Virus record (IMG/VR): IMGVR_UViG_3300003324_000863
Location: 745-64,744 of that record
Length of the DNA stretch: 64,000 bases
Direction: 5' to 3' (one strand)
DNA from: a virus
Part shown: positions 2,491 through 59,911 of the stretch, piece after piece
Layout: every line of letters starts with the position of its first letter
Numbering within the stretch: the stretch's first letter is position 1
Notes under the pieces: generated by a model
The model's database searches: none
What the model was told of the DNA's origin: nothing
Seen by the model: only the letters and a program-made list of their open reading frames with translations
Position numbers and translations under genes: made by a program

Positions 2491-5215
2491 CCGCTTCCTC
2501 CTCCTCGTCGTCGTCTTCATCCATCTGGGGGCAGCAGTCCTCCGAGGTGCAGTCCCAGCAGAGGAGCTCGCCGCAGTGGTCACAGGAGTGCTGCCAGTCC
2601 ACCATGCCGTTCCCGCAGAGGACGCAGTGGTACTGGTACTCCACTTCCTCCTCGGACTCCTCGTACTCCGGGACGGGCTCGACGATCTTGGTGTCTGGGA
2701 TAAGCTGCTTATTGCAGGAGTCCTCCCCGATCAGGCAGCAGGACTCCGGTGCCGTGTAGGCAAGGCAGTTCTCGTGGATGTTGCCGACCCGGATATCCCC
2801 GTCGACCACCGGCAGCTGCTTGTACGTCATCTTGGAGTGGGCCAGGGACTTGATGTGGTCCAGAGCCAGAGCCTTCAGGTAGCTCTGGCAGTTGTCGCAG
2901 ACCCCAATGTCGTCGAGATTCACGTTGACTGCCGTGTACCCCGGCTCTCCGCCCCGCTTGTACTGGATGTGGACGAAGCCCTGCTCGGGCACCCACCGTC
3001 CCTGGGCGTAGGTCACCGGCGGCAGGGTCACCACCGTCGGCTCGGGCTTCGGCGCCTGGGCAAGGATCGCCTTGGCCAGCTCACCCACGGTCATTCCCAC
3101 GGTTCCTGACTGGGGTGGCGCCGACATCTTCATGGCCGCTTCGTACTTCTTCTTGTTGGCGGCGATGAGCTTCGCCTCGTACTCTGCGTGGGCCTTGGCC
3201 TGCTTCTCCAGCTCGACCTGCTTGCGGTACTCATGATCTCGGATGATCCGCTCGGTCTTGGGATCGGGCACCCAGGTCGGGACAGTGTGCATCTTGCCGA
3301 GCACCGAGATCACCCGGTCTCCCATCTCGAAGACCGTGCCGTCCCGCCGCAGCCGCTCCGCTTCCCAGATGGAGATCGCTGCTCGGGCGGGCACGATGGG
3401 ATGGCCCTGGGCTGCGAGGTCGAAGGTGTGGCCGTGGGCCCACTTGTTCAGCCACCAGCCCCCGTTGTGGACCTGGTCGACGGCGACGTTGAGGGCCTTG
3501 GCCAGGCCGTCCACCTCCAGCTTCCCCGTAACGAAGTCCCGGATGGCCTGGTCGACCTGGAGCGTCGCCACCGCGCAGTCCTTCCACCGCCGACCGCCGA
3601 TGGACCCCGCTCCCCAGGGGTACTTCTCAAAGATCCATCGGGCCCGCTCCAAGGCCTGCCGTCCCCCGAACGGAGACCGGAAGCTCTCCGTGTACACCTC
3701 CTCCCGCGTCCGCTCCCGCCGGGCCAGCCGGGCATGCCGTGCCTCACCGAGACAGGCCGCCGATCCGTACCGCAGGATCATGGCCATGGCATAGCCGATG
3801 TGGTACGTATCCTGACCGCGGAGGAGGCCGGAGTTGTGGGCTGCCCAGACCAGGTGGTTGATCTTCGACGCATGGCCAACGTATGCCGTGCCCTGATCGT
3901 AGTCCAGCTGCTTCTTGATGTGCTTCAGGTCCGTCATGAAGCCGGCGACCAGTCCATCCAGTGCCGCCTCCCTGCTGTAGGGCTCGAGATCGAACGTCGG
4001 TTCAAGCACGTCTCCGACCTGGGGCTCGAAGCTGATGACGATCGGGATGCGGGACGAGAGACAGTGGGCGCCGTAGTGGGTCGCCAAGCTGCCGCCTGGG
4101 TGGTAGACCACGGTACCCGGCTCGAACTCCTTGACCTTCCGCTCCCATTCGAGGAGGTCACCTGACGCTTCGACGACGTGCTGGACGGTCATCTTCTCGG
4201 GGATGTAGTCCCGCTTGCCCTCGGCCTTGGGCCCGGCCCGGAGCTGGACGAACTTGGCGCCCCCGTTCTCGTCGATGACCACCTCGAAGTAGGGATGCTC
4301 ATCGGCCACGTCCACCCCGGCGTTCTTCATCCGGTGGGCATGCTCGATGTGCCACTCGGATGCCTGGGGTAGGACCACCGCACCCTTCCCACTCGTCGCC
4401 CCGTCGTGCCCGGGTCCGATGGTGAGGAGGTTCGGGGTCCAGACCACGTTCAGCTGCGCATTGACCGGCGGCATGAGGATCAGCTCAGCCTCGGGGTCCT
4501 CGGCCAGTGCCTCCTCCAGGACCTTGACCGCCTCGTCTGCGGTCTTCACCTTCCGGCTATCGACGAAGCCGTGGCGTGGCCGAGTGGGGGCAGGCCGGGC
4601 GAACACCTCACCGATCGGGTTCTTGAACCGCCCCGACTTGTGATGGAAGGCGAAGCGCACCCCGTCCGCATCCTGGGCCACGACGTAGCTCAGGGTCGGG
4701 AGGCTGAAGCCAGGGAGCTGGGGCAGCCCCTTCGCCTTCTGGGTACGGAGCCGCTTGGCATCCGTGTACACCCCGTAGGCCTCGGGATCATAGACCCACG
4801 CCTTCGGCACCTCGACCCTGGGTGCAGAGCTGACCCCCGTTCCGCCGACCGAGGAGCGGAAGACCCCCAGCATCTCCTCGAAGCTGATCGCCTTCGGCGC
4901 GTCCAGGGTAGCGGGGATCTCCGCCCCGATCTCCACCTGAGGGGACTCCTCTAGGGCATCGTCGGAGACAGGCACGATCCATTCCTCCTTGTACCCGAAG
5001 GCCGTAGAGGAGTAGTAGGTAGGGTCCTCCCCCGGGTCAGGGATAGGGGCCGGCTCGGGCCACGTCACCTGGTAGTCGTAGAAGCCTCCGGGCTCGAGAA
5101 CGTTCGCCACTGTACCGACCAGGTGATCCGGGGGGCAGTTGGCGCCTGAGTTGGGGTTGACCTTGACCTTCATCCCAACCTTCAGCTTGGTCGGCGTGTC
5201 AACGAGTGCTGCCAT
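2471..5215 (-). CDS. Large protein with PEP-synthase-like phosphohistidine swivelling motif
   Basis: 914 residues. The N-terminus (VGMKVKVNPNSGANCPPDHL) looks like an SH3/KOW-type barrel. Mid-protein, LLTIGPGHDGATSGKGAVVL and AKFVQLRAGP recall the end of an ATP-grasp-like dikinase unit. PGGSLATHYGAHCLSSRIPI then matches the GG-x-(S/T)H-x-A-x-x-(A/C)R-x-x-x-IP signature around the phosphohistidine of PEP-utilising enzymes, with the His kept. A long helical, charged region follows, then C-terminal CxxC zinc ribbons (CVLCGNG, CDHCGELLCWDC) and an acidic tail. No complete PEP-synthase catalytic domain is evident, so the reaction is unknown. ATG at 5215 has CCTCCTTT (plus strand) as its SD. It overlaps the phosphatase-like gene. 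Confidence 0.72.
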   Translation of the reverse strand: MAALVDTPTKLKVGMKVKVNPNSGANCPPDHLVGTVANVLEPGGFYDYQVTWPEPAPIPDPGEDPTYYSSTAFGYKEEWIVPVSDDALEESPQVEIGAEIPATLDAPKAISFEEMLGVFRSSVGGTGVSSAPRVEVPKAWVYDPEAYGVYTDAKRLRTQKAKGLPQLPGFSLPTLSYVVAQDADGVRFAFHHKSGRFKNPIGEVFARPAPTRPRHGFVDSRKVKTADEAVKVLEEALAEDPEAELILMPPVNAQLNVVWTPNLLTIGPGHDGATSGKGAVVLPQASEWHIEHAHRMKNAGVDVADEHPYFEVVIDENGGAKFVQLRAGPKAEGKRDYIPEKMTVQHVVEASGDLLEWERKVKEFEPGTVVYHPGGSLATHYGAHCLSSRIPIVISFEPQVGDVLEPTFDLEPYSREAALDGLVAGFMTDLKHIKKQLDYDQGTAYVGHASKINHLVWAAHNSGLLRGQDTYHIGYAMAMILRYGSAACLGEARHARLARRERTREEVYTESFRSPFGGRQALERARWIFEKYPWGAGSIGGRRWKDCAVATLQVDQAIRDFVTGKLEVDGLAKALNVAVDQVHNGGWWLNKWAHGHTFDLAAQGHPIVPARAAISIWEAERLRRDGTVFEMGDRVISVLGKMHTVPTWVPDPKTERIIRDHEYRKQVELEKQAKAHAEYEAKLIAANKKKYEAAMKMSAPPQSGTVGMTVGELAKAILAQAPKPEPTVVTLPPVTYAQGRWVPEQGFVHIQYKRGGEPGYTAVNVNLDDIGVCDNCQSYLKALALDHIKSLAHSKMTYKQLPVVDGDIRVGNIHENCLAYTAPESCCLIGEDSCNKQLIPDTKIVEPVPEYEESEEEVEYQYHCVLCGNGMVDWQHSCDHCGELLCWDCTSEDCCPQMDEDDDEEEEADEEDED

Positions 5216-5266
5216 GCGTCCTCCTTTCGTCGCATCACTTCACTCCGCGTCAGCGGAGAGCGGAGA

Positions 5267-5280
5267 GTTAAGCGCTTAAC
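5267..5280. promoter_or_regulatory. Operator-like palindrome GTTAAGCGCTTAAC
   Basis: Perfect 14-bp palindrome overlapping the stop codon of the 5268-5534 gene. It is the cleanest member of a dispersed family. Others include ATAAGCTGCTTAT (2700), ATAAGCGCTTAT (6764), TGCTTAATAAGCA (14338), TTAAGCGGCTTAA (22430), TTAAGCGGCTTAT (29410), TTTAAGCGCTAAA (34204), GTTAAGCACTTAAC (39898), TTAAGTACTTAA (51107) and ATAAGCAGCTTAAC (51775). Probably a repressor or other phage protein binding site (inference). Confidence 0.6.
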
Positions 5281-5534
5281 TTGTAGGCCAGCCGCACTAT
5301 CGCTTGCAGCTCCAGCAGACTGATGGGGAGCTGCTCGCCCCGTGGATCGTAGACTCCGGCAGTACTGAAGTGGCCCTCACTCTTGCGGAACTCCTGATCG
5401 GCGGCGTAGGCGATGGCTGCCTGGAACGAGGGGAACCCGGACCGAGAGAGCAGCTTGCCCTCGACCCAGTAGGTGACGCGGTACGAAGGACTGAGCATGC
5501 GCTCGAACTCTGCCTTGTCAAGGACCTTGACCAT
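5268..5534 (-). CDS. Hypothetical 88-residue protein
   Basis: Begins MVKVLDKAEFERMLSPSYRV at ATG 5532-5534. I reject the longer reading from 5663, because it would run through a well-formed promoter (5589-5618). The sequence (YWVEGKLLSRSGFPSFQAAI) suggests a compact alpha/beta protein; the family is not recognised. The last codons and stop form a perfect 14-bp palindrome, GTTAAGCGCTTAAC (5267-5280), one of the dispersed operator-like sites. Confidence 0.68.
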   Translation of the reverse strand: MVKVLDKAEFERMLSPSYRVTYWVEGKLLSRSGFPSFQAAIAYAADQEFRKSEGHFSTAGVYDPRGEQLPISLLELQAIVRLAYKLSA

Positions 5535-5588
5535 TGACCTAACCCCCTTTACCTGGGACTTCGTGACTGTTTCGTTCGGTCGATCGGC

Positions 5589-5618
5589 ATTGTCGCACGA
5601 TCGAGCGGCGGCCGTCAA
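5589..5618 (-). promoter_or_regulatory. Sigma70-type promoter, copy 1
   Basis: On the minus strand: TTGACG, 18 bp, GACAAT. The spacer GCCGCCGCTCGATCGTGC is nearly identical to that of the second copy at 7014-7043. It sits 55 bp upstream of the ATG at 5534, and its flank (CCATC before the -35) is also shared with copy 2. Confidence 0.7.
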
Positions 5619-5634
5619 GATGGGGAACGCGGGT

Positions 5635-6447
5635 CTACGGGGTGAAGGTGTGCGTCTTCCCACGAGCGAGGGAGTAGAGCTGAACCCTATCTTTGGTGTT
5701 AGGGCACAGCCGTTCCCCGATCTCCAGCACTGCCTTGAGGGCGCCGTCGGTGAGAGGGAAGTTGTAGCTGGTGGGGTAGGTGGGATTAGCTAGCATATTT
5801 TCAGCCCGGATCAGTAGAGATCGGGCGATGATGCCGAGCACGTCTTTCCCCATACCGTATCTCTTCCGGAGTTCCTCCTCGAATGGCCGCAGCCCCTCGA
5901 CGATGCACCTGGCCAGGGCCTCAGCCTTCTCCTCGATGGTCTCACCCACCGGCGTGCTGGTCCAGGGATCGAGCCACTCGGGCTTGTAGTAGAGCTTGAG
6001 GTTCGGGGTATATCCCATCTTGGTGCCCGTCAGTGGGTGGTGGGTCTGTGGTGTCTCAAACTCCACAATGATGGGATTGAAGGGATGCGGGGTGTCCTGA
6101 GGATTGAACCCGGTGACCTTGCCCCTGATCTCTGGATTTCCATGTCCCTCCCTGGTCCGGACCTCGTCCCCGATCTGGAACCCTCCGGTTACCAGCTCCG
6201 GCGTCTCTTCCTGCGGAGCAGCCAGCTCCAGCTCCCAGTCGTAATAGTGGTCCTCGTCCTTGCCCTCCTTCAGCCAGTAGGGCGTGCCTGATGCAGTCCC
6301 GTAGTGGCCGTTCGGCTGGTCCCACTTGACAAGGAACAGGCCATCGTAGATTTCCGCGGTCACCATGCCGAGGGTCTCGGGGCTGACGACGTGGTGCCCG
6401 TCGAGCTGGTTCGCCTTGAACCTGACCTTGTCTCCGACCTTGAACAT
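5635..6447 (-). CDS. Protein with two SH3/KOW-like modules
   Basis: 270 residues. Two similar units begin FKVGDKVRFKANQLDG and FQIGDEVRTREGHGNPEIRG, each followed by strands ending in a W-D/E segment. This is the pattern of KOW or Mib/Herc2-type SH3 barrels, which usually bind protein or nucleic acid. The C-terminal 100 residues are helical (IEEKAEALARCIVEGLRPFE). ATG at 6447 has AGGAGGAG upstream. The same 'VGD+V' style recurs in the 914-residue protein and in 9603-9740. Function unknown. Confidence 0.72.
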   Translation of the reverse strand: MFKVGDKVRFKANQLDGHHVVSPETLGMVTAEIYDGLFLVKWDQPNGHYGTASGTPYWLKEGKDEDHYYDWELELAAPQEETPELVTGGFQIGDEVRTREGHGNPEIRGKVTGFNPQDTPHPFNPIIVEFETPQTHHPLTGTKMGYTPNLKLYYKPEWLDPWTSTPVGETIEEKAEALARCIVEGLRPFEEELRKRYGMGKDVLGIIARSLLIRAENMLANPTYPTSYNFPLTDGALKAVLEIGERLCPNTKDRVQLYSLARGKTHTFTP

Positions 6448-6495
6448 CGCTCCTCCTCTCTAGCCCAAGTCTCCAGCGTGCCGCCGGCAGTCCAG

Positions 6496-6687
6496 CTAGA
6501 AGACATAGGTCAGGTCCACGGGCTCACGGGTTACTTGGACTACGAACCACCCCAAGCGTAGCTCTAGGACCGGCCGCTCGGAGTTGTCCCGCCGGATATA
6601 GAATGGACAGCATCCCTCCTTATCGTAGGTATCCGACTTCAAACGCCATCTCTGGCCGAATGGACACCGATAGATGCTGATCGTCAT
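6496..6687 (-). CDS. Small Cys-containing hypothetical protein
   Basis: 63 residues, MTISIYRCPFGQRWRLKSDT, with CPF, CC and aromatic residues that could fold as a small zinc or beta protein. Its ATG overlaps the stop of the upstream gene (ATGA, 6684-6687), the packed arrangement seen throughout, which supports it as real. Function unknown. Confidence 0.6.
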   Translation of the reverse strand: MTISIYRCPFGQRWRLKSDTYDKEGCCPFYIRRDNSERPVLELRLGWFVVQVTREPVDLTYVF

Positions 6688-6923
6688 CGTGAGTACCGAT
6701 CCTCCCCTTGCCCAGCCACTCGGGTGAACTGGCCGCCGTTGAAGTCGGCGTAGTCCTCCTCGAATAAGCGCTTATACCATCGGGTCACCTCGTCCCAGAA
6801 CTCCGCATCCGGCTGGGTCTTGGGGTGGCCCTGCTTGTCCCGCTCTTCCCGTCGGGTCAGGTCCAGGCCGTGGCGGAGGGCCGAAGCTACTTCACCTATG
6901 TTCTTCCGATCCGCTCGGGACAT
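6684..6923 (-). CDS. Hypothetical 79-residue protein
   Basis: Starts MSRADRKNIGEVASALRHGL at ATG 6921-6923. A longer reading to 7064 would cross the promoter at 7014-7043. Charged and helical (LDLTRREERDKQGHPKTQPD), ending Gly/Arg-rich. An internal ATAAGCGCTTAT palindrome (6764-6775) is one of the dispersed operator-like sites. Confidence 0.65.
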   Translation of the reverse strand: MSRADRKNIGEVASALRHGLDLTRREERDKQGHPKTQPDAEFWDEVTRWYKRLFEEDYADFNGGQFTRVAGQGEDRYSR

Positions 6924-7013
6924 AGGGCTCTTCCTTATTGCTTCTGGCAGACTTCTCACCTCCCTTCTTATAGTCTCCCGTCTGACACTAGGCGTCCGAC
7001 GTGAAACGGGTCG

Positions 7014-7043
7014 ATTGTCGCACGGCCGAGCGGCGGCCGTCAA
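7014..7043 (-). promoter_or_regulatory. Sigma70-type promoter, copy 2
   Basis: Minus strand TTGACG, 18 bp (GCCGCCGCTCGGCCGTGC), GACAAT. Compared with the copy at 5589-5618, the spacer differs at only two positions. It drives the 6923 gene and those below. A half-symmetric TTTAGCCGCTTAAC (7072-7085) lies just upstream and belongs to the operator-like family. Confidence 0.7.
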
Positions 7044-7121
7044 GATGGTCTCGCGTCCCATCACCTCCGACTTTAGCCGCTTAACTATGGCTGCACCCCA
7101 AGGCCGAGGCTGAGTCTTTGT

Positions 7122-7268
7122 CTAGGCGGTCTCGGCCCAACACGAGCGGATGTAGGCGCGAAAGTACACCAGGTCTCCCGTGCTCTGCCAGAGTCTTGCC
7201 CAGTCTTGGGACTTCATCGTGGGCCAGACGGCGTGCCAGAGGATCATGGTGAGGTCGACGAAGTCCAT
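7122..7268 (-). CDS. Small hypothetical protein
   Basis: 48 residues from ATG 7266-7268 (MDFVDLTMILWHAVWPTMKS), with CGGAGG upstream; the longer reading lacks a ribosome site. Trp-rich and amphipathic. Contains two of the clustered GTCTTG motifs (plus strand), read in two different frames. TAG is followed on the minus strand by ACAAAGACTC and a GC-rich stretch similar to 54408-54445. Confidence 0.6.
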   Translation of the reverse strand: MDFVDLTMILWHAVWPTMKSQDWARLWQSTGDLVYFRAYIRSCWAETA

Positions 7269-7270
7269 GG

Positions 7271-7423
7271 TCAGCCTCCGATCTGGTCTTGCCAGTATGC
7301 CGCGGCCGTCTTGGCGTGGCGGTAGACCATCCATGCCCCAGGACAGCCGGTCTTGAGGAACTCCTGCCAGAAGCGATCGGCCCGTCTCAGGCAGGCCTCC
7401 CGCTGCGTCTCGGCGTAGCTCAT
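7271..7423 (-). CDS. Small hypothetical protein
   Basis: 50 residues from ATG 7421-7423 (MSYAETQREACLRRADRFWQ) with GAGGGA upstream; helical. Overlaps the 7420-7602 gene by ATGA. Three repeats of the GTCTTG cluster lie inside, as KT and QD codons. Function unknown. Confidence 0.6.
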   Translation of the reverse strand: MSYAETQREACLRRADRFWQEFLKTGCPGAWMVYRHAKTAAAYWQDQIGG

Positions 7424-7602
7424 GGTCGATCCCTCACGATCGGTTCGTGGAAATGGTGCGGTCTTGCGACGGAGATCACCCGCCGATTCTTTCCGTGCAG
7501 GCTCAAGGATCGGCTCTTGGTTTGCCTCTTGGGGCAGTCTGGGTTGGGGCATGGGTCTCGCTGGTCTCCCCGTGGGCAGCGGCAGGCACGGCAGGTAACC
7601 AT
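7420..7602 (-). CDS. Small Cys-rich (zinc-finger-like) protein
   Basis: 60 residues, starting MVTCRACRCPRGDQRDPCPN. C-x2-C-x-C, then C and C within the next ten residues, suggest a small zinc knuckle, followed by a basic tail. Ends in an ATGA overlap with the next gene, which supports it. Function unknown. Confidence 0.55.
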   Translation of the reverse strand: MVTCRACRCPRGDQRDPCPNPDCPKRQTKSRSLSLHGKNRRVISVARPHHFHEPIVRDRP

Positions 7603-7623
7603 CGCTCATCCTCCGAAGATAAA

Positions 7624-7661
7624 GCAAGACCAGGGACCGATTGTCTCAGCCCCTGGTCTTG
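7624..7661 (-). terminator. Stem-loop built from two inverted GGTCTTG copies
   Basis: CAAGACCAGGG ... CCCTGGTCTTG form an 11-bp stem around a 15-16 nt loop. On the minus strand the stem is followed by CTTTATC, so it may be a terminator after the 7689-7991 gene. It is also the only place in the cluster where the repeat word is inverted. Confidence 0.5.
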
Positions 7662-7688
7662 GGTCTATTCGATTGGCGCGGTCTTGGG

Positions 7689-7991: not shown

Positions 7992-8076
7992 CGGTCTATC
8001 CTCCGTCTTGCTATGGGCTAGGCCCACGCTTAGAAGGCCGAAGGCACGGACACCTTGGGCCCTCTCTAGCGTGGTC

Positions 8077-8331
8077 TTAGCTGGCCAGTGCCACCGCTTC
8101 GGTCTTGCCCACCGCGTCGAAGTCCCGCGCCAGGATGGTCTCAAGCTCATCAGCGGTCTTGCCCGTGGCGCGGCAAATGTCGGTCTTGGGCAGCCGCGAG
8201 GTCTTGGCGAACATCTTGGCGCACCAGTCTTCCAAGTCCTGCAAGGATGGGTCTGCCTTGGCGCGACGCTCTTGGGCTCGGGCAATGGTGCGGGCCTTAA
8301 GCGGCTTGTTGTGGCGCGCGGTCCTTGACAT
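8077..8331 (-). CDS. Small basic hypothetical protein
   Basis: 84 residues from ATG 8329-8331 (MSRTARHNKPLKARTIARAQ), with GGGAG upstream. Basic N-terminus, then a helical segment with four Lys-Thr pairs (AKTSRLPKT, GKTADEL, GKTEA), each encoded by a copy of the CAAGACC word. The RATGKTADELETILAR stretch recalls an HTH. Possibly DNA-binding, not proven. Confidence 0.62.
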   Translation of the reverse strand: MSRTARHNKPLKARTIARAQERRAKADPSLQDLEDWCAKMFAKTSRLPKTDICRATGKTADELETILARDFDAVGKTEAVALAS

Positions 8332-8435
8332 GGGTCTAACTCCCTTCCCTCTGCCCCTGTTCTCAGGCGACAGCACTAACCCCCGAACCCGGAGGCTCAG
8401 GGGCTAGGGTTGTGGCCGGAGGATTAAGCGGTAGT

Positions 8436-8663: not shown

Positions 8664-8684
8664 ATCCCTACCCCCGTCACCCGT

Positions 8685-9236: not shown

Positions 9237-9240
9237 AGGC

Positions 9241-9600: not shown

Positions 9601-9602
9601 GG

Positions 9603-10655: not shown

Positions 10656-10672
10656 GCCCCACCTCCTTCGAG

Positions 10673-10798: not shown

Positions 10799-10799
10799 C

Positions 10800-14306: not shown

Positions 14307-14337
14307 GACTATTCCTTTCCGCCGTTAGGCGTTTATG

Positions 14338-14376
14338 TGCTTAATAAGCATACCTCACATGTGATCTGGTTAACAA
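14338..14376 (-). promoter_or_regulatory. Promoter and operator of the DGQHR-integrase operon
   Basis: Minus strand TTGTTA (14371-14376), 18 bp, TATGCT (14347-14352). The palindrome TGCTTAATAAGCA (14338-14350) covers the -10 and likely start site and belongs to the TTAAGC operator family. A second palindrome, TCACATGTGA (14355-14364), lies in the spacer. This fits a repressed lysogeny promoter. Confidence 0.55.
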
Positions 14377-14756: not shown

Positions 14757-14885
14757 ATGCATGACGCCTCTCCGAATAAGCCGCCTAAGTCCATTCCCTG
14801 CCCGGTCTGCGGCCATCCGATCCCCGACCTGGCCGGCACGAAGCAGCCCTGCCCGAACTGCGGCTACCGAGAGGGTTGCTGTTAA
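14757..14885 (+). CDS. Small zinc-ribbon protein
   Basis: 42 residues from ATG 14757 (MHDASPNKPPKSIPCPVCGH): two CPxCG knuckles (CPVCGHPIP and CPNCGYREG), a rubredoxin-type zinc ribbon. An upstream in-frame ATG at 14685 is possible. Immediately precedes the small terminase gene. Function unknown. Confidence 0.55.
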   Translation: MHDASPNKPPKSIPCPVCGHPIPDLAGTKQPCPNCGYREGCC

Positions 14886-14894
14886 AATTACTAT

Positions 14895-15572
14895 ATGGAT
14901 ACCCCGCAGCCGACCCAGGTCCCGAACGTCACGCTCTTCTGGAGGACTGACGAGCCCCCGAAGGCGAAACAAGCGTTCAAGGACTACCTTGCCCTCGGAC
15001 CCTCCCGCTCGATCGAGCTGCTCTACGAGAGCTACCTGCGGGCCGCTGAGGAGACGGACACCAAGCCCTTCGCCCCACCCGCCACGCTCCGCAAGTGGGC
15101 GACCGAGTTCAACTGGGACCAGCGCCTCACCGAGCAGTCCGAGGCGGCCTCCTATGACGAGGAGATGAACCGCCTGGACCTCATGCGCCTGGAGCACGAG
15201 CACGCGGTGAAGCGGATCGAGGCGTGGGACGAGGTGCAGGAAGAGCACCGCTCCCGCATGGTGGACCTGGGCAATAAGCTCTACTCCCGGATCCTCGAGA
15301 TGCTGGCCCAGCCCATCGTCAAGGATGAGATCGACGAGGATGGGGTCACGGTCATCCGCTACCCGATCAAGTACGCCGCGTCGGATATTGCTCGCTACGT
15401 CGAGGTCATGGACAAGCTCGTGCGCCTGGCCGCCGAGATGGATACCTCCCGGGACAAGACAACGATCATCAGCGAAGAGCAGATCGACGCCGCCGCCCGG
15501 CAGTACGGGGTCCGGCGCGAGGACCTGGTCCGACGGCTGGACGAGATCACCAAGACCCTTACCAAGAAATAA
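14895..15572 (+). CDS. terS: Terminase small subunit (probable)
   Basis: 225 residues. The N-terminal half (KAKQAFKDYLALGPSRSIEL ... LRKWATEFNWDQRLTEQ) matches the HTH-like opening of phage small terminases, with long helices after (LRLEHEHAVKR region) and a basic C-terminal HTH-like end (AARQYGVRREDLVRRL). It would recognise phage DNA and feed it to the large terminase. No SD is visible: TTAAAATTACTATATG suggests the transcript starts almost at the ATG (leaderless). It lies over 8 kb from the large subunit, on the other strand. Confidence 0.65.
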   Translation: MDTPQPTQVPNVTLFWRTDEPPKAKQAFKDYLALGPSRSIELLYESYLRAAEETDTKPFAPPATLRKWATEFNWDQRLTEQSEAASYDEEMNRLDLMRLEHEHAVKRIEAWDEVQEEHRSRMVDLGNKLYSRILEMLAQPIVKDEIDEDGVTVIRYPIKYAASDIARYVEVMDKLVRLAAEMDTSRDKTTIISEEQIDAAARQYGVRREDLVRRLDEITKTLTKK

Positions 15573-15593
15573 GCGCGTAACGCCGGAGGCATC

Positions 15594-21576: not shown

Positions 21577-22433
21577 CGCGGATGCAGCGTGGGGACGTCG
21601 CGATCGGCGGCGGGCTCGGCTACGACGAGGTCATCACCAAGGTCGCCGAGTGGGAGCAGTACCTCCAGGCTTACGATGACGCCCACCTGGACAACCCCAT
21701 CCTTATCGACAACCCGATGCTGGTATCGGGGGCGACGTTCTCCCCCTCAGGGCACCTGTATCTCTCATGCGCTGACCCGACCCAGAACTCGGACTACGAC
21801 CCCCATGGCATCGTGTGGCTTCCCAAGGCTCATGCGGGCGCGCAGCTCGCCGTCCTTATTGCCCGAGTCGGGGATACGCTCGAGCTGTGGGAGTACGACT
21901 CGACACTGAACGATCCCGTCACGGTCCATACCGGTCTCGACGTCGATCCTGGATGGAACCGGAAGACCTACACCCATCTCGACTGTCTCTCGGACGGCCG
22001 CACGATCTACTACACCACGCAGGGGAAGACGATCTTCCGCTACCACCTGGACGACGGGCAGCTCACCCCGTTCACGCAGCTCGGGCCTGAGGCGCACCAC
22101 ATCTACGCCGACCTCAAGATCGTCCAGAAGACCGGCCGGGTCCTGGTGGCGATGACCTCGACCGGGCATGGGCCCCGGAACGCCGTGTGTTTCGACTCGA
22201 ACGGCACCTCGCTCTGGCATGACGAGATCAACCCGCCCGGCGCGTACAACATCTGGAAGCGGCTTATCGCCGATGGCTCGCTCGTCAATGACGTCGCCCA
22301 GGGGGTGCCGGAGGGGAAGTTCGAGGTGTCCCTGGCGCCTGGAGTTGCGGGGGTCGGGAACAATGCCGAGGTGTTCAGTCTCGCGTGCTGGCTCCAGGGC
22401 ACGTTCGGAGCCCACATCACCGTGCTCGGTTAA
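21573..22433 (+). CDS. Beta-propeller-like virion protein
   Basis: 286 residues, overlapping the previous gene by ATGA. Repeating units such as MLVSGATFSPSGHLYLSCAD, HLDCLSDGRTIYYTTQGKTI and KTGRVLVAMTSTGHGPRNAV read like short beta-propeller blades. Probably a tail-tip or receptor-binding component. The stop codon lies inside the palindrome at 22430-22442. Confidence 0.6.
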   Translation: MTRMQRGDVAIGGGLGYDEVITKVAEWEQYLQAYDDAHLDNPILIDNPMLVSGATFSPSGHLYLSCADPTQNSDYDPHGIVWLPKAHAGAQLAVLIARVGDTLELWEYDSTLNDPVTVHTGLDVDPGWNRKTYTHLDCLSDGRTIYYTTQGKTIFRYHLDDGQLTPFTQLGPEAHHIYADLKIVQKTGRVLVAMTSTGHGPRNAVCFDSNGTSLWHDEINPPGAYNIWKRLIADGSLVNDVAQGVPEGKFEVSLAPGVAGVGNNAEVFSLACWLQGTFGAHITVLG

Positions 22434-22454
22434 GCGGCTTAATCACCGTATACT
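22430..22454 (+). promoter_or_regulatory. Operator TTAAGCGGCTTAA overlapping a promoter
   Basis: A 13-bp palindrome (22430-22442) followed by TCACCG and a TATACT -10 box (22449-22454). The GGCTTAATC element before TATACT is shared with 23085 and 24913. The leader then forms a stem AAGGGGA ... TTCCCCTT before the start at 22491, so promoter - hairpin - gene is repeated here. Confidence 0.6.
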
Positions 22455-27867: not shown

Positions 27868-28140
27868 TCATGCCTCGGGGTCCTCTTCCAATTCGACCAC
27901 GACCCCCCACAGCTCCTCTGATGCCCCTTCCCAGAACTCGATGCTCTCGATCCGTCCCAGCTCCTGGCCCACGGACGGTGGATAGAACGTTACGTGCTTA
28001 ATCCGCGGGCAGAAGAACGTATGGACACACCCGCACCATCGGCAGACATCGACAACCCCGCCGGGCCCCATGATCCGTCCGTTCTCGTACCGCACGGGGA
28101 GCGACGGGCGGGCCTTCGGCTTCGTCCACGGCCAGTCCAT
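27868..28140 (-). CDS. Small Cys-containing protein upstream of portal
   Basis: 90 residues (MDWPWTKPKARPSLPVRYEN), with CRWCGCVHTFFCPR as a likely zinc site and an acidic end (VVVELEEDPEA). Stop and portal GTG abut, so translation is coupled. Function unknown. Confidence 0.6.
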   Translation of the reverse strand: MDWPWTKPKARPSLPVRYENGRIMGPGGVVDVCRWCGCVHTFFCPRIKHVTFYPPSVGQELGRIESIEFWEGASEELWGVVVELEEDPEA

Positions 28141-28265: not shown

Positions 28266-29720
28266 ATGGCCACCGACCTCACCCGACTCTACGTGCCCAT
28301 CACCGTCAAGATGGACCCCGGCAACCCGGGCGTCCGCGTCGTCTCCGGCCTCGCCACGGACCCAACGCTCGATTCCGACCGGCAGATCTGTGACCCGGGA
28401 TGGCTCGAGAAGGCGATGCCGGCCTACGAACGGTGGGGCAATATCCGCGAGATGCATCAGCCCATCGCCGCCGGGGTGGCCACCTCCATCATCAAAGAGG
28501 GCGATGCCTACTACGTCACCTCCAAGATCATTGACCAGGGCACCTGCGCCAAGCTCGACGCGGGGGTCCTCAAGGGTTACTCGATCGGTATCGCCCACCC
28601 CCAGGTGATCCGGGACACCAAGGCGATCGGGGGCCGCATCGTCGGGGGCGAGATCATCGAGATCTCCCTCGTCGACCGCCCGGCCAACCCCTCCGCCCTC
28701 ATCGACTCCGTTGAATTTGCCGAGAAGATGGACAAGGTCTTCCTCCTTCCTCCGGAAGACGAGCGTCTCACGGCCGTCAAGACCCACCTCGCGTCCCTCG
28801 TCAAGGGCGACCTCGACCCCGCTAACGCCGACGTCATGAACGTGCTCCAGCTCAATGAACTGGACGATGCCCAGCTCGCCCTCCTGGCAGCCGATCTTAT
28901 CCGCCGCCTGATGATTCGCGAGCTGCACGAGGGCGCCGAGCCGGGCGAGGGTCTCTCCTACTCCATGGGCACCCTGTCCTACTGCTACGACTGCCTCCTG
29001 GCCTACTCCCGTGAGGAAGCCGAGGAAGCCTGGAGCTACCTTGCCGCCCAGCTCATCGGCCGCATGGAGACCGGTCACACCGTAAGCCAAGCCACTGAGG
29101 TTGTTATGGATAACGCAGAACAGAACCAGCCCGAGGGGAAGGCCCTCCTGGCTGAGCTCCAGAAGGCGCTCTCTCGTGCCGACACCGCGACCCTCCGTGA
29201 GGCTCACGACATGCTGGCTGAGGTCACCAAGAGCGCCGACATGTGCAACGACTTCGCCACCAAGTTCTCTTCCGCTGTCGCGGAAGCGGCGAACAAGGAC
29301 GCGGAGTCCGAGGACCCCAAGGTTGAAGAGCCTGAGGCGGTGAAGTCCGAGGGTGAAGAGGCTCCCGAGCTTGTTGCCGGCGAGCCCGTCCCGACGGTTG
29401 AAGAGATCGTTAAGCGGCTTATCGAAGCCCGAGAAGCGGAATGGACCTCCCAGCTGGAAGCGGCGACGACCAAGGTTGCCGAGCTGGAAGCCAAGCTGAC
29501 CGAGCTCGGGAACCAGCCGGACGATACGAACTCCCCGCTCCTCCAGTCCCCACCGATCGTGAAGAGCTACCTCGAGAAGCAGCTCGATGGGCTGAAGGAG
29601 CGCCAGAAGTCCCTCGACTACACCGCCAGCAACCACCCGGACGGGACCATGCGCGCCCGCGCCTTGGGGGACCTCCGCAAGGTGAACGCGCAGATCAAGG
29701 AGATTGAAGGCAATGTTTAG
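28266..29720 (+). CDS. Prohead protease fused to scaffold-like tail
   Basis: 484 residues from ATG 28266 (GGGGAG upstream); a reading from 28158 would run through the leader terminator. The protease part has the HK97-type catalytic set: His in REMHQPIAAG, Ser in LKGYSIGIAH, and a following ISLVDRPANP. The rest is acidic with a coiled coil (REAEWTSQLEAATTKVAELE), typical of scaffold fused to protease. It matures capsid and scaffold. The stop overlaps the capsid start. Confidence 0.85.
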   Translation: MATDLTRLYVPITVKMDPGNPGVRVVSGLATDPTLDSDRQICDPGWLEKAMPAYERWGNIREMHQPIAAGVATSIIKEGDAYYVTSKIIDQGTCAKLDAGVLKGYSIGIAHPQVIRDTKAIGGRIVGGEIIEISLVDRPANPSALIDSVEFAEKMDKVFLLPPEDERLTAVKTHLASLVKGDLDPANADVMNVLQLNELDDAQLALLAADLIRRLMIRELHEGAEPGEGLSYSMGTLSYCYDCLLAYSREEAEEAWSYLAAQLIGRMETGHTVSQATEVVMDNAEQNQPEGKALLAELQKALSRADTATLREAHDMLAEVTKSADMCNDFATKFSSAVAEAANKDAESEDPKVEEPEAVKSEGEEAPELVAGEPVPTVEEIVKRLIEAREAEWTSQLEAATTKVAELEAKLTELGNQPDDTNSPLLQSPPIVKSYLEKQLDGLKERQKSLDYTASNHPDGTMRARALGDLRKVNAQIKEIEGNV

Positions 29721-33703: not shown

Positions 33704-34440
33704 TCGATCACCTCCTGGCAGAGATCGCTGGCCCGCTTGTAGTCCGGTTCCCCGGGGAGCGGTGAGCAGATGTACGCTTCCTTCAGGGCATCGAGGAGTC
33801 GTTCCGCTTCCGCGAACGCCCGCTCCTCGTCCCATTTCCCAGCCCGGATATCTCTCAACTCCTCCGCGTCTGCATGTCGGAAGACCTGGAGTTCCCCGTC
33901 GGTGAGGAACTCGACCCCCATCCGCAGGACTCGGATCGCGTGCATCATGTCCTTCCATGGGAACGGGGGCCAGGTGTCGTATCCACCACACGGAGGACAC
34001 GGGGCCTCTGCGCAACACCGATCGCAGCGCTGGAATGGCCGGTTCTTCATCCGCCGCAGGTGCCCGGTGGCCATGTCCTTGAACGCGCCGTAGACGTGCC
34101 GGCCCACGAAGACGTCCCGGTTCTTCCGGAGGAGATCCCCGGCATCCGTAGTCCGCACCGCGTACATCGGGACCCAGAGTACCTCGAGCACCGATGGGTT
34201 CCCTTTAAGCGCTAAACTGAAGAACTTCCGGCACTCATACACGACGATGTCGAACTCGCCCTCCTTGATCTCCTTTGTCCCTTCAGCTCCGTACCGCTCC
34301 AGCCCCGCGTAGTGCGAGAGGGGCGGCACGCAGATGGACAGAACGTCGAAGTCACTCGTCTCCGTCGCCAGGTTGTACGCCCGGCTCCCGCGTGGGCAGG
34401 AATAGATAGACCACTCTCCGAACCCCGGATCGTCGATCAT
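33682..34440 (-). CDS. RlaP-like nucleotidyltransferase
   Basis: 252 residues from ATG 34438-34440, with GGAGGGG upstream. CPRGSRAYNLATETSDFDVL is the GSRxYxLAT..SDxD motif of the RlaP branch of DNA polymerase beta-type nucleotidyltransferases, found in phages with RNA repair systems; EFDIVVYECRKFFSLALKGN is also typical. A Cys-rich insert (CDRCCAEAPCPPCGGYD) may bind zinc. No RNA ligase is nearby, so the partner and substrate are unknown. Confidence 0.85.
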   Translation of the reverse strand: MIDDPGFGEWSIYSCPRGSRAYNLATETSDFDVLSICVPPLSHYAGLERYGAEGTKEIKEGEFDIVVYECRKFFSLALKGNPSVLEVLWVPMYAVRTTDAGDLLRKNRDVFVGRHVYGAFKDMATGHLRRMKNRPFQRCDRCCAEAPCPPCGGYDTWPPFPWKDMMHAIRVLRMGVEFLTDGELQVFRHADAEELRDIRAGKWDEERAFAEAERLLDALKEAYICSPLPGEPDYKRASDLCQEVIECALAAR

Positions 34441-39827: not shown

Positions 39828-40085
39828 TCAGACCCACTCGACGTCCTCCGATCCGCACCACTTGCACTCGGGCCCGAAGAGACTCTGGTGTCCACAGGTT
39901 AAGCACTTAACGCCAGGGATGTTCGTGTGGCTGAGGCTCGTCACCTTGGCCGTTACATCCGCGACGTGCCGGATCATCCGAGCGATCGTCGGGGGAACTT
40001 CGGCTCTCCCGTCCTGGGCCTCATACCTCCGCCCCGCGATATCAACACTCTTGGCGCCCTTCGGAAGATTGACGTTGTAGCTCAT
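39828..40085 (-). CDS. Small protein with zinc ribbon tail
   Basis: 85 residues from ATG 40083-40085 (MSYNVNLPKGAKSVDIAGRR), ending VKCLTCGHQSLFGPECKWCG, a two-knuckle zinc ribbon. The GTTAAGCACTTAAC operator-like site (39898-39911) lies in the region that encodes its first knuckle. Confidence 0.62.
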   Translation of the reverse strand: MSYNVNLPKGAKSVDIAGRRYEAQDGRAEVPPTIARMIRHVADVTAKVTSLSHTNIPGVKCLTCGHQSLFGPECKWCGSEDVEWV

Positions 40086-50803: not shown

Positions 50804-51245
50804 TTACCCCCCTCATCCGATCCACCAGCGCTCGGTCAATCGCGATCACCACCTTCTCGGTCATGTGATCGATGCGGTCCAGGATCTGCTTCCGCTCGTC
50901 CGCGGCATCCCGGCGCTGGTTCTCGGAGATCATCAGGTAGTCTCGGTGCTGCTCCCGCATGGTTCCCAGGGTCTCACGGTTCTGATTCACAGACTCCTTC
51001 ATGACGTTCGCCATCTCGGCAATGGTCCGCATCTCCCGGGCTCGGTCCTGCCCCACCTGCTCCGCGAACTCCTTCGACTCGGTGCGCAGGACCTCGATCT
51101 GGCCGGTTAAGTACTTAATGTGCTCGTCTTTCCCGTGACCGTACTCCCGCCATAGGTAGAAGGAGACGAGTGCCAGGGCCAGGAAGAGGGCCGAGCCCGG
51201 CCCGAAGGTGGTGTAGATGCCGCTGAGAATATCGGACCAGGGCAC
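50787..51245 (-). CDS. Membrane-anchored coiled-coil protein
   Basis: 152 residues. N-terminal membrane segment ALFLALALVSFYLWREY, then a long charged coiled coil (ESKEFAEQVGQDRAREMRTI). This is the build of spanin-like or inner-membrane phage proteins. Carries an internal TTAAGTACTTAA palindrome (51107-51118). Function unknown. Confidence 0.58.
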   Translation of the reverse strand: MPWSDILSGIYTTFGPGSALFLALALVSFYLWREYGHGKDEHIKYLTGQIEVLRTESKEFAEQVGQDRAREMRTIAEMANVMKESVNQNRETLGTMREQHRDYLMISENQRRDAADERKQILDRIDHMTEKVVIAIDRALVDRMRGVSGRDD

Positions 51246-51254: not shown

Positions 51255-51845
51255 CTACTCACGGTCGAGGAACCTGGCAACGGTTACCCCCCATGGCACC
51301 CCCTGCTTCCTGGGGCTCCGCCGGGTCTTTCGAGGAATGGCGACGAGGTCCTCTGTAACCTGGTCAGCTTCCTGCTGCCACGATTCAATTGTACCAGGTG
51401 AGAGCCCCTTAACGACCGCGCGGCGATAGAACGCCCGGAAGGTCATGGCTACACCGTCCCGGTCCGGCACCCAGATCGGCATCATCTCCAGCTTCCGGCA
51501 GAAGGAGTAGATCGCCATCTGCATGGACCCGATATGCCAGCCCGTATCCCGCTTCCGGTAGACCACATGGCTCCCATCCAGGGACCAGGCGCCCTCGAGG
51601 AGGAGGATCCGGGTATCGAACTCGTGCCGCATCCGGGTGCATTGGGCTTCGAGGCGGCCCGACTTGAGGGAGGAGAGGAAGTCACTGACGGTCTTCCGCT
51701 CCATCCCCAGCCGGACCCCCTCACACTCGATGACGTAGTCGCCGGTCTCGATCATCTTGATCTCGGTACCTGGGATAAGCAGCTTAACTGCGTCCTTGTA
51801 GATCGCCGGTTCGCGGGCATCGACAGTCGCGACCACCTTGTGCAC
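51255..51845 (-). CDS. ERCC4-type nuclease
   Basis: 196 residues from GTG 51843-51845. VVATVDAREP and GDYVIECEGVRLGMERKTVS form the GDx(n)ERKxxxD motif of ERCC4/XPF/Mus81 nucleases, and DFLSSLKSGRLEAQCTRM is the following helix. Cleaves branched DNA. A basic C-terminus (RKTRRSPRKQG) may bind DNA. A TACAATT box (51388) and an ATAAGCAGCTTAAC palindrome (51775) lie inside it. Confidence 0.85.
   Translation of the reverse strand: MHKVVATVDAREPAIYKDAVKLLIPGTEIKMIETGDYVIECEGVRLGMERKTVSDFLSSLKSGRLEAQCTRMRHEFDTRILLLEGAWSLDGSHVVYRKRDTGWHIGSMQMAIYSFCRKLEMMPIWVPDRDGVAMTFRAFYRRAVVKGLSPGTIESWQQEADQVTEDLVAIPRKTRRSPRKQGVPWGVTVARFLDRE
51388..51393 (-). promoter_or_regulatory. TACAATT box
   Basis: Minus-strand ACCTGGTACAATTGAATC, 140 nt upstream of the 51245 gene, inside the ERCC4 nuclease gene. 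Part of the set with 28171, 40650, 46747 and 57550. Confidence 0.4.
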
Positions 51846-57549: not shown

Positions 57550-57570
57550 ATTGTACACGATGGTTAAGCC
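57550..57570 (-). promoter_or_regulatory. Promoter with GGCTTAA and TACAAT
   Basis: Minus strand GGCTTAACCATCGTGTACAAT: the GGCTTAA element (57564-57570) and TACAAT (57550-57555), 8 bp apart. It combines the upstream element of the 23085/24913 promoters with the -10 box of the TACAATT group. 54 nt before ATG 57496. Confidence 0.55.
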
Positions 57571-57571
57571 A

Positions 57572-57775
57572 CTAAATCTTCACCTCCATCCCGGGGTGGA
57601 ATAGCTCCGACAGCTTCTTCCACATCTCCATCAGTGCCCCAGCCTCCCCGACGAACTCCATCCGGATCTCCATCTCATGGGCTGGAGGGATTACCGGAGC
57701 GCCCCCCAGTGCGTAGTGTCCATAGGTGGCCGACGACTTCATGTCCGCATCCATCTTCACGAGAATCGTCTTCAC
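57572..57775 (-). CDS. Hypothetical 67-residue protein
   Basis: From GTG 57773-57775 (VKTILVKMDADMKSSATYGH), overlapping the helicase stop by GTGA. Beta-alpha pattern, ending EMWKKLSELFHPGMEVKI. Possibly a helicase-associated small protein; unknown. Confidence 0.58.
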   Translation of the reverse strand: MKTILVKMDADMKSSATYGHYALGGAPVIPPAHEMEIRMEFVGEAGALMEMWKKLSELFHPGMEVKI

Positions 57776-59247
57776 TTCACCACTGCCTCCAAGAACCAGT
57801 TGGGTAAGAACCTCTTCGCCGCGTGCTTGAACCACCCGAAGTTGGCATCACACAGGTACGTGATCCCCCAGTCATCCTCGGCCCGCATCGCCCGCCCGTA
57901 GGCTTGAACCAGGGCGCTTGCCGTGTCGTAGATGGCCATGTCCTTCCCGACCTGGCTCCTCGCCTGGGCTACCCTCACTGGATCTGACCGATCGGGGAAG
58001 GGCAGCTTGAGGATCACCTGGAACCGACACTGCTCGAACGGTGCATCGAACCCCACCATCGCACTAGGGGAGATCAATACCGCAGGGAACGTAGCACTTC
58101 GGTAGTTCCGGAACGTCTGCTCTCGGTCCTTGCTGTCGTGGCACAACAACCGATGCGTATTCCTCGAACGGCGTAAGACTTCCTGGGTCAGCCGGTAGCT
58201 CACGCTGTGGATGATCCCCTTGTCCCCCGGGTGCGCCTCCAGGATCCGGTCCACCTCCTCCACCAGGCTCGCGATCTCGTCCTCCCCCATCGATGCCGAG
58301 ACCTTCGTAACTAATCTCAAGCGTAAGGGTCTTCGTTCCACTGGGAACGGCGAAGGTATATCGAAGAAGGCAGTCCGATCCATCGCCAACCCCAACTGCC
58401 GACAGAAGAGATATGGGTCCAGGATGGTGGCGGACATAATAACGGCACGCTTTGACCAGGAGAGAATAGTCGGAGACGCCCACATCCCCGCCCACACGGG
58501 CTTCACGCTCCACCCGTAGGGTTCCTCGACCACGAGCCTTTCGCCTGAGCCATTCAAACACTGGACGTACTCCTCTACAGCCTTGGCCGACCGAGCATGT
58601 CTCTTGTCCTCCGTCTTGGGAATCTCGACCCGCTTTCCCCAAGCTCGCCACTCCTCGATCCCAGTTCCGCGCGGAGGATGTGGAGCGTCGACGGATGCAA
58701 GATCCCCCCGCTTGAGATCGCGAGCCATCCAACTAGACATCTCAGAAGCCAGCTCATGGCCCTCATCACACACGAGGAGCTCGGGCTTGAACCCGGAGTC
58801 TGGCTCCATGTTCCGGAGTGCGTAACTGTAATTGGTCACCACCTCCCTACTCTGAATCGCTGCCCTCTTGGCATCGTAATAGCTACACCCAGGTAGCCCT
58901 GTCGGCCCGGCGTAGTCACAGGGGATCCCGAAGGTGCAGTTCCCCCAGTCCGCCTGGAGTCTCTCATCGATCTTGCACCGGAAGTTCTGCCGGCCCCGCA
59001 TGTCCACCATCCCACCCATGCTGAGGTACTGGTCCTGCAGCTGCTTGGTGCTGGTGAGGTACATGGTCTGGGACGGGCTGAGCATGCGGCTCACGAGGAT
59101 GGCGATGGCGGTCTTCCCTACCCCCGGCGGCGCCTGGACCAGGACATGCTGCGCCCCATCCCTGAACTTCCTCACAATCTCCTGTGCCAGCTCGAGCTGC
59201 CCCTCCCGGAAGCTCTCGAATGGCAGGCCCCAATCACTCGGGGTCAT
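57772..59247 (-). CDS. XPD/DinG-like SF2 helicase
   Basis: 491 residues. Motif I QAPPGVGKTAIAI, four Cys of an Fe-S domain (NFRCKID, GNCTFGIPCDYAG, LPGCSY), DEGH box VCDEGHEL, and motif VI VQAYGRAMRAEDDWG. A 5'-3' DNA helicase of the XPD/DinG family, probably for replication or recombination. Unwinds branched or repair substrates; ATP-driven. Confidence 0.92.
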   Translation of the reverse strand: MTPSDWGLPFESFREGQLELAQEIVRKFRDGAQHVLVQAPPGVGKTAIAILVSRMLSPSQTMYLTSTKQLQDQYLSMGGMVDMRGRQNFRCKIDERLQADWGNCTFGIPCDYAGPTGLPGCSYYDAKRAAIQSREVVTNYSYALRNMEPDSGFKPELLVCDEGHELASEMSSWMARDLKRGDLASVDAPHPPRGTGIEEWRAWGKRVEIPKTEDKRHARSAKAVEEYVQCLNGSGERLVVEEPYGWSVKPVWAGMWASPTILSWSKRAVIMSATILDPYLFCRQLGLAMDRTAFFDIPSPFPVERRPLRLRLVTKVSASMGEDEIASLVEEVDRILEAHPGDKGIIHSVSYRLTQEVLRRSRNTHRLLCHDSKDREQTFRNYRSATFPAVLISPSAMVGFDAPFEQCRFQVILKLPFPDRSDPVRVAQARSQVGKDMAIYDTASALVQAYGRAMRAEDDWGITYLCDANFGWFKHAAKRFLPNWFLEAVVK

Positions 59248-59447
59248 TCGGTGTTCTGCCTGATCTCACTCGTGACAGGGTCGACATCTATGAATCCAAG
59301 CTCATCGTGTGTGATGAGATGGTTGTCAGTTCCCCAGGGTGATGCATTACTCCAGATACTGATCCCGTGGTCCTCACCTTCGTACACGTCGACCAGGGCA
59401 TTCCCGGGGTACTTCTGCAACTCCTCGATCAGCTCGTCTACGGTCAT
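59244..59447 (-). CDS. Small conserved hypothetical protein
   Basis: 67 residues (MTVDELIEELQKYPGNALVD). DELIEELQKYPGNALVDVYE is a small alpha/beta opening common in phage and bacterial genes. ATGA overlap on both sides. Function unknown. Confidence 0.65.
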   Translation of the reverse strand: MTVDELIEELQKYPGNALVDVYEGEDHGISIWSNASPWGTDNHLITHDELGFIDVDPVTSEIRQNTE

Positions 59448-59911
59448 TCGTCCTCCTCTCTGGATAAGAGCTTAATCACCCCGTCGACCCGGTGGAAGTG
59501 CATCCCGTCCCACTGGTAGTAGCCCCCGTTGATGGCGGGCCGCTCGATGTAGATCCCCAGGGGCTCGTGCCGGTGGTCCTCCTCCCAGTGCTGGGCCATG
59601 AACGCCACGGCCTCCAGGAACGGGGAGATGTCCGACTCCTCATACTCCCAGGCCTGGTCGACATACCCCGTCAGCTCGGGCCAGGGCGAGTCCTCGGTGT
59701 CCCGATGCTGCCGGAAGATATGGATCGCCCCGGGACTCAGGCTCCAGACATGTCCCTCGATCTCACTGGAGAGCCCCACGTTCCCCGGGTTCGAGATGAC
59801 CACCGTCCGCTCGATCGGGGACCAGTGAAAGATCCGGAGGGTCAGTCCACCCTCGAGCTGGATCTCCTCCTTGGGCACGCCTCTGTGCCCATCGCCGTCA
59901 CCGTCCTGCAT
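59444..59911 (-). CDS. Hypothetical beta-rich protein
   Basis: 155 residues (MQDGDGDGHRGVPKEEIQLE), beta segments (LTLRIFHWSPIERTVVISNP), acidic middle and Glu-rich end. Operator-like GATAAGAGCTTAAT near its stop (59463-59475). No family recognised. Confidence 0.58.
   Translation of the reverse strand: MQDGDGDGHRGVPKEEIQLEGGLTLRIFHWSPIERTVVISNPGNVGLSSEIEGHVWSLSPGAIHIFRQHRDTEDSPWPELTGYVDQAWEYEESDISPFLEAVAFMAQHWEEDHRHEPLGIYIERPAINGGYYQWDGMHFHRVDGVIKLLSREEDE

Follow-up and report, generated by a model that had tools for sequence, protein, structure and literature searches.

The 64-kb window analysed here (bases 745-64744 of the 66,169-base virus record IMGVR_UViG_3300003324_000863) carries a dispersed set of short palindromes of the form TTAAGC(N)GCTTAA, counted 18 times at 17 distinct places when up to two mismatches are allowed. 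A dispersed operator network is well supported, and these palindromes are probably the sites of the phage's own DndB/DGQHR-family protein (477 amino acids; gene 12873-14306, minus strand; Pfam PF14072, TIGR03187), which, judged from sequence comparison, would be a transcriptional regulator of the dimer type. This DndB-like protein would repress its own unit, composed of dndB followed by int, via a promoter-side site, and would repress or damp many other units via the dispersed sites. At promoters the bound protein would block the RNA polymerase, while at gene ends and within genes it would act as a road-block, in a stoperator-like manner. That the protein binds the sites directly, represses, serves as a road-block or takes any part in lysogeny or immunity is what we infer from the sequence.

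Among the classes of explanation, an operator/stoperator-type network has the best support, owing to the dyad symmetry with fixed spacing, the selection acting at the DNA level within genes, the enrichment upstream of genes (strong in relatives that carry the DndB-like gene, weaker in the window), the site where the dndB-int unit starts and the presence of integrases. The role of the DndB-like protein as the putative reader of the network is supported by association, by covariation, by candidate autoregulatory sites and by its predicted fold.

Palindromes in the window

The motif comes in two lengths. With one central base, the 13-mer TTAAGCNGCTTAA is present in 8 copies at up to two mismatches (0.25 expected; maximum of 2 in 100 shuffles), and without it the 12-mer TTAAGCGCTTAA is present in 10 (0.34 expected; shuffle maximum of 2), the place at 7072/7073 being scored under both lengths, so that 18 counts correspond to 17 places. 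The copies at 5268 and 22430 are perfect and the remaining ones have one or two mismatches. When spacers of 0-60 are scanned, only 0 and 1 are enriched (10 and 8 copies), versus a mean of 0.71 and a maximum of 4 at the others; at up to one mismatch the two spacers give 3 and 4 copies, versus a mean of 0.034 and a maximum of 1. The 13-mer read backwards has no match in the window, and tandem and outward arrangements of the half-site, scanned at spacers 0-30, show no rise at 0 or 1, where tandem copies number 2 and 1 and outward copies 0 and 1; spacers 2 and 3, by contrast, have 7 and 8 tandem copies. Across all 4096 six-base half-sites combined with spacers 0-10, TTAAGC reaches a log10 p of -10.9 at spacer 0 and -8.1 at spacer 1, and the best of 40 third-order Markov simulations reaches -6.6.

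The over-representation is real, which confirms the excess over chance claimed in the initial annotation of this DNA. A TTAAGC-type palindrome is present at all 13 places listed there, although four positions (5267, 34204, 39898 and 59463) were one base early with respect to 12-mers that start at 5268, 34205, 39899 and 59464, and 14338 corresponds to 14333-14344. That list was also incomplete, as the sites at 8297, 14776, 27990 and 57564 were missed.

Regarding their placement, the genes of the window were defined by a simple codon-usage script rather than by curated annotation. The 12-bp palindrome TTATGTGCTTAA (14333..14344) belongs to the promoter region of the DndB-like gene, whose ATG follows 26 bp on. 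On the minus strand a promoter-like pair, TTGTTA-18-TATGCT, immediately precedes this palindrome, which is overlapped by a weaker copy at 14325. The 13-bp palindrome ATAAGCCGCCTAA (14776..14788) is intergenic, upstream of the terminase small subunit gene (14895-15572, plus strand), and TTTAGCCGCTTAA (7072..7084) occupies a gap separating predicted genes. Several sites mark gene ends: the perfect 12-bp palindrome TTAAGCGCTTAA (5268..5279) makes the stop codon of gene 5268-5534(-), with the start of the next gene (5215) 53 bp on; the 12-bp ATAAGCGCGTAA (15569..15580) covers the stop codon of the terminase small subunit gene, with the next gene 13 bp on; and the perfect 13-bp TTAAGCGGCTTAA (22430..22442) covers the stop codon of gene 21573-22433(+). 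Gene 57572-57775(-) has the 13-bp TTAAGCCACTAAA (57564..57576) at its end, 67 bp from the next gene, and gene 59444-59911(-) has the 12-bp ATAAGAGCTTAA (59464..59475) close to its end, about 17 bp ahead of the start of gene 59244-59447(-). The placements at stop codons and at a promoter that had been proposed for 5268, 15569, 22430 and 14333 are right. The additional proposal, in which several promoters have the GCTTAA half as their upstream element, was not confirmed: the lone promoter-like pair beside a window site has its palindrome just past the -10 hexamer.

The other sites are located within genes, as had also been noticed initially. Two of them are close to a start, namely the 13-bp palindromes TTAAGCGGCTTGT (8297..8309), 22 bp into gene 8077-8331(-), and ATAAGCAGCTTAA (51775..51787), 58 bp into gene 51255-51845(-). 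The 13-bp ATAAGCTGCTTAT (2700..2712) lies within gene 2471-5215(-) and the 13-bp TTAAGCGGCTTAT (29410..29422) within the head maturation protease-like gene 28266-29720(+), while the 12-bp palindromes ATAAGCGCTTAT (6764..6775), TTACGTGCTTAA (27990..28001), TTAAGCGCTAAA (34205..34216), TTAAGCACTTAA (39899..39910) and TTAAGTACTTAA (51107..51118) lie, respectively, within predicted gene 6684-6923(-), gene 27868-28140(-), gene 33682-34440(-) for an RlaP-type nucleotidyltransferase, gene 39828-40085(-) and gene 50787-51245(-).

Of the 18 counted palindromes, 11 are wholly intragenic, versus a mean of 1.53 and a maximum of 5 in 300 synonymous-codon shuffles, and at up to one mismatch there are 5 intragenic sites versus 0.08. 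Moreover, 6 of the 18 TTA-leucine codons of all predicted genes fall inside sites, within 212 bp of site sequence. The synonymous-shuffle excess and the TTA codons inside sites indicate that the DNA pattern, and not the protein sequence, has been kept. An artefact of chance or of codon usage might have been suspected, as a 12-13-bp pattern chosen by eye from 64 kb is open to selection and GC-rich palindromes are also in excess; the exhaustive half-site scan, the spacer controls and the synonymous shuffles refute this explanation, to which we attach practically no probability. The GC-rich excess concerns TCCAGG-N-CCTGGA and a few other palindromes, which lie about 3- to 4-fold above Markov expectation and beyond the simulations, and it probably reflects codon structure that the Markov null ignores.

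Networks in phages that carry the DndB-like gene

An alignment of four homologues led to 37 loci in viral contigs; of these, 33 are good, and the 4 weak, partial ones (L185-L188) were dropped. One unbiased palindrome scan was applied to all contigs of at least 18 kb, with a log10 p of -8 or lower as the threshold for a network, and 18 of the 24 DndB-positive contigs of this length (the window counted among the 24) pass it. Their networks are mostly of TTA or TTTG type, that is, dispersed 12-13-bp palindromes of the shape TTAR-N3/4-YTAA or TTTG-. They comprise TTAGTCGACTAA or close variants (G828, G830, G831, G835, G841 and G844), TTAGTGCACTAA (G822), TTAGCCGGCTAA (G823), TTAGCTAGCTAA (G839 and G840), TTTGCATGCAAA or TTTGCGCGCAAA (G836, G837 and G842) and 13-mers of the form xTTAGYNRCTAAx (G826, G827 and G829). 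The DndB-positive contig G824 (L203, L204) has dispersed CCTAAA-N4-TTTAGG palindromes, mostly in bases 1300-16500. A repeat of G846, GGGTTCGAACCC, was not taken as a network; it is presumably a tRNA T-arm repeat.

Two sets of DndB-free phages served as controls, and none of the control sequences contains a relative according to the DndB profile. Among 32 relatives reached through the head protein of the window (11 contigs that are whole or nearly so, plus 21 loci measuring 18-22 kb, the shorter pieces giving less power, and some coming from the same or near-identical elements that were kept in the count), one passes, with a different motif type. This contig, G018 (the record of L077, IMGVR_UViG_3300032898_000005), has 18 dispersed TTGWCA-N3-TGWCAA sites at up to two mismatches. 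None of 13 phages related through the capsid of the DndB-positive group passes; these were fetched from 18 records checked for the DndB gene, none of which had it. After removal of G830, whose DndB protein is identical to that of G831, and of G824, which passes the test with a different motif arrangement, the TTA/TTTG motif type is found in 16 of 22 DndB-positive contigs and in none of 45 controls (Fisher p 7e-11), or p 2e-5 when the comparison is restricted to the 13 same-capsid controls; both p values are lower than they should be, because the phages are related by descent and are not independent.

The motif sequence follows the divergence of DndB rather than that of the terminase. Across 15 network phages, motif distance, expressed on a simple ad hoc scale devised for this analysis, correlates with DndB distance (r 0.49, p 0.0002), and does so when terminase distance is given (partial r 0.42, p 0.0004), whereas terminase distance given DndB has r 0.06 (p 0.26). 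In the DndB tree, one starred clade (G836, G837 and G842) holds the TTTGC motifs and another (G839 and G840) TTAGCT, and a weaker group is formed by G826, G827 and G829 together with G822 and the network-free G847. The exact motif of the window is private among 26 capsid-related records, none of which has it at 0 or 1 mismatch. The exact 14-mer GTTAAGCGCTTAAC occurs in 16 stretches of viral contigs, with one or two sites per record (up to one mismatch), and none of the viral contigs carrying it has a network.

These comparisons bear on who reads the sites. Another regulator of the phage might do so, with the DndB-like protein as a mere passenger of temperate phages that have networks, the candidates being an XRE protein (33470-33703), an RHH protein (62453-62680) and a helix-turn-helix (HTH) protein of 119 amino acids (10153-10512). 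All three have matches to DNA-binding domains, above the Pfam cut-offs for the XRE and RHH proteins and below them for the HTH protein, and palindromes of 12-17 bp are common targets of XRE-, RHH- and HTH-type dimers. Nevertheless, we consider another regulator unlikely: the HTH protein matches just G832 and G833, both network-free, and the motif covaries with DndB beyond the terminase. The XRE and RHH proteins, which the initial annotation had put forward as binders, have no tblastn match in other DndB-positive contigs, to which the DndB-like gene is common; this gene is the sole link of the window to all the network-bearing phages, barring remote terminase and integrase similarity to some. 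KorA of plasmid RK2 was considered as a model for the HTH protein because of a weak KORA match (19.4 bits, cut-off 26.7) and of a similar-looking operator, GTTTAGCTAAAC, which we take to resemble the window palindrome; it was dropped, the protein being missing from network-bearing phages. Reading of the sites by a host factor (a regulator, a nucleoid protein or a modification enzyme), with the phage proteins uninvolved, is very improbable, as the motif varies among DndB-positive phages and tracks the DndB sequence, and as DndB-free relatives are without such networks.

The sites of the DndB-positive phages are concentrated upstream of genes. In 16 phages, window included and G824, G830 and G838 left out, the 226 sites include 169 that are not wholly intragenic, where 30 would be expected, and 157 that stand in the 150 bp preceding a start, where 57 would be expected; these expectations take no account of the AT-richness of gaps. 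The median position is 42.5 bp ahead of the start codon. A tyrosine integrase is encoded in 13 of 16 DndB-positive records, window included.

The DndB-like protein as candidate reader

The 477-residue protein belongs to the DGQHR/DndB-like superfamily, with matches of 93.1 bits to PF14072 (cut-off 29.1) and 74.8 bits to TIGR03187 (58.85), and the DGQHR residues are invariant across 39 alignment rows. It is not DndB proper, the TIGR03233 equivalog of dnd operons, for which it scores 28.6 bits versus a cut-off of 328. The neighbouring genes encode an integrase and the terminase small subunit. In cultured phages it has remote matches only, the best being to Vibrio phages (E 3e-7, 25% identity). 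Among sampled bacterial genomes, 1 of 396 from the Actinomycete phylum matches the protein (E at most 1e-20), 7 of 391 from the Streptomyces order match the DndB profile (E at most 1e-40), and none of 6 genomes with a related head protein has a match.

Related signals also occur upstream of homologues carried by two actinobacterial plasmids and by one genome of that phylum: TTAAGATCTTAA stands 80 bp ahead of the homologue in L151, TTAAGAACTTAC lies upstream of that in L150, and L149 has less exact copies. The Streptomyces-order loci L189 and L190 likewise have TTAAGAACTTAC at -95 of the homologue. In total, TTAR-N4-YTAA (up to one mismatch) is found within 120 bp upstream in 15 of 40 non-redundant homologues, versus 2.8 predicted by shuffles, and gaps of 0-3 and 5-10 give 2-5. 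DndB of Salmonella enterica is described as an autorepressor that protects two TACG-N10-CGTA palindromes in its own promoter (PMC4507180). According to other work, DndB is ParB-like and represses the dnd operon in an ATP-dependent way, and a bacterial DndB-like protein bound ATP and GTP (PMC12704722).

The N-terminal fold of the phage protein is likely ParB-like. In an AlphaFold2 model (37 rows, mean pLDDT 87.8), residues ~44-242 align with ParB, Noc, SspE, BrxU and pNOB8-type ParB, which make up the top 14 VIA-align rows (Z 4.8-7.0). The likeness falls short of proof because Foldseek alone is non-significant. A search of solved structures with a four-row DndB profile gave nothing below E 0.1.

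A fold of this kind would also suit a DndB-like protein that binds the sites for DNA organisation, partition or packaging, as a ParB-fold clamp loading at parS-like sites, and not for transcription. The sites are dispersed and in the window many are intragenic, the gene stands directly ahead of the terminase genes in G844, G841, G839 and G827, and Corndog-type phages are reported to pair dispersed palindromes with a ParB-domain protein, with few promoters near the sites (PMC4351075). This alternative seems improbable to us, given that the sites of DndB-positive phages concentrate upstream of genes, that the integrase in most DndB-positive records makes partition unnecessary for maintenance, and that known DndB is a transcriptional repressor (PMC4507180).

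Several observations weigh against the DndB-like protein as a transcriptional regulator that reads these networks. The window itself, with a log10 p of -6.0, stays below the cross-phage threshold, partly because its sites are split over two spacings. Five other DndB-positive contigs of at least 18 kb (G832, G833, G834, G843 and G845) pass at no spacing and G838 passes at spacer 6 only, and it is the network-free G832 whose homologue is nearest to that of the window in the DndB tree. The DndB-positive phages have many other genes in common, so that their contigs are not independent. AT-matched windows from the same contigs predict 6.1 upstream TTAR-N4-YTAA signals, to be set against the 15 found, the fold Z-scores are below 8, and plain Foldseek has no match with E below 0.001. 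Within the window, the excess of sites that are not wholly in genes (6 of 17, 1.9 expected) and of sites within 150 bp upstream of a start (10 of 17, 4.0 expected) is modest, and across the phages promoter-like pairs are near just 14 of 164 oriented sites, versus 8 of 528 upstream regions without sites.

Comparison with known systems and other features of the phage

Dispersed operator networks are already known, and the best-studied one, that of L5 and its relatives, is described as using helix-turn-helix repressors (PMC9283540). L5 and the cluster A phages have many short repressor sites spread along a temperate genome, both at promoters and between genes; likewise, the 17 places of the window include intergenic sites and sites upstream of starts. 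However, the L5 stoperators are reported to be oriented 13-mers that lack symmetry and are recognized by an HTH repressor acting as a monomer (PMC9283540), whereas the window has symmetric palindromes of two lengths, 12 and 13 bp, and a ParB-like fold is predicted for their proposed binder. The likeness to L5 stoperators drawn in the initial annotation therefore stands for the operator/stoperator class and fails for an L5-type set of sites.

Salmonella DndB shares with the phage protein the superfamily (PF14072, DGQHR), and its reported palindrome binding and autoregulation (PMC4507180) are what is proposed here for the phage. It differs in its target, which is TACG-N10-CGTA at one promoter, whereas in the phage TTAAGC(N)GCTTAA occupies 17 places across the genome; the phage protein is also far under the equivalog cut-off of DndB proper. 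The binding sites of KorA and KorB of plasmid RK2 differ in sequence from the window palindromes. The ParB-family KorB represses at long range (PMC11790492), and is likened to the present system by description.

Among known systems, the palindromes of the cluster O mycobacteriophages (Corndog) are nearest in appearance, with 34 copies of a dyad-symmetric 17-bp repeat, about a third of them intragenic, in phages that encode a ParB-like protein (PMC4351075). The repeat, TGTTCGG-N3-CCGAACA, is different in sequence and length, and these phages are described as being without an integrase; its binder was given as unknown by the authors, who held transcriptional regulation unlikely (PMC4351075). Corndog-type phages were examined as a second DndB case and rejected, since the sampled loci yielded no significant match to the DndB profile. 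When viral contigs were scanned for the TGTTCGG-N3-CCGAACA pattern, one with many such repeats (record IMGVR_UViG_2974766419_000001) proved to encode a 519-amino-acid protein (L407, 4214-5773, minus strand) that matches ParB_N at 27.9 bits (cut-off 26.3) and is a candidate binder of the repeat. With such a protein in a contig of this kind, a link of ParB-fold proteins to dispersed phage palindromes is worth testing there too.

The accessible portions of the literature on DndB/DGQHR in connection with phages, prophages and repressors yielded no account of a DndB-like protein that reads phage operator networks. If the interpretation is true, a gene family present in numerous uncultured phages and prophages would gain a function, proteins annotated as DNA sulfur modification factors would be renamed, and 15 naturally varied pairs of protein and motif would be available to study sequence choice by a ParB-like fold. 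A wider generalization is more speculative and only tentatively proposed: a class of temperate actinobacterial phages might silence its prophages through a DndB-like, ParB-fold dimer under nucleotide control, which would load at 10-20 dispersed TTAR-N3/4/5-YTAA sites to stop transcription from them. Coevolution of repressor and sites would then lead to private sites and private immunity, and the phage and plasmid proteins named "DNA sulfur modification protein DndB" would be repressors without a role in sulfur modification.

As for the remaining gene content, the tyrosine integrase expected of phages with temperate immunity systems is encoded at 11693-12889 on the minus strand (PF00589, 80.9 bits) and overlaps the end of the DndB-like gene. 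No DNA match to cultured phages was obtained for positions 1-25000 of the window (near search) or 40658-48600 (distant search), and single PolA, portal or DndB sequences retrieved no relatives from viral contigs. The head genes are split across strands, an unusual arrangement (23226-31389): the terminase large subunit (23226-24845) and the portal (26044-27867) are on the minus strand, and the head protease (28266-29720) and a protein related to the major head protein (29713-31389) on the plus strand. The tail tube gene is located at 36182-37174 (minus strand), and the RlaP-type nucleotidyltransferase, whose gene contains a palindrome and which belongs to an RNA repair family, is encoded near the tail genes. 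A tRNA-Gln (ctg) at 211-286 (minus strand) is the sole tRNA detected in the window. Finally, the predicted protein encoded at 60139-62385 on the minus strand joins a match to uracil-DNA glycosylase (residues 7-150) at its N-terminus to one to family A DNA polymerase (residues 387-735) at its C-terminus, a possible natural fusion in this phage.

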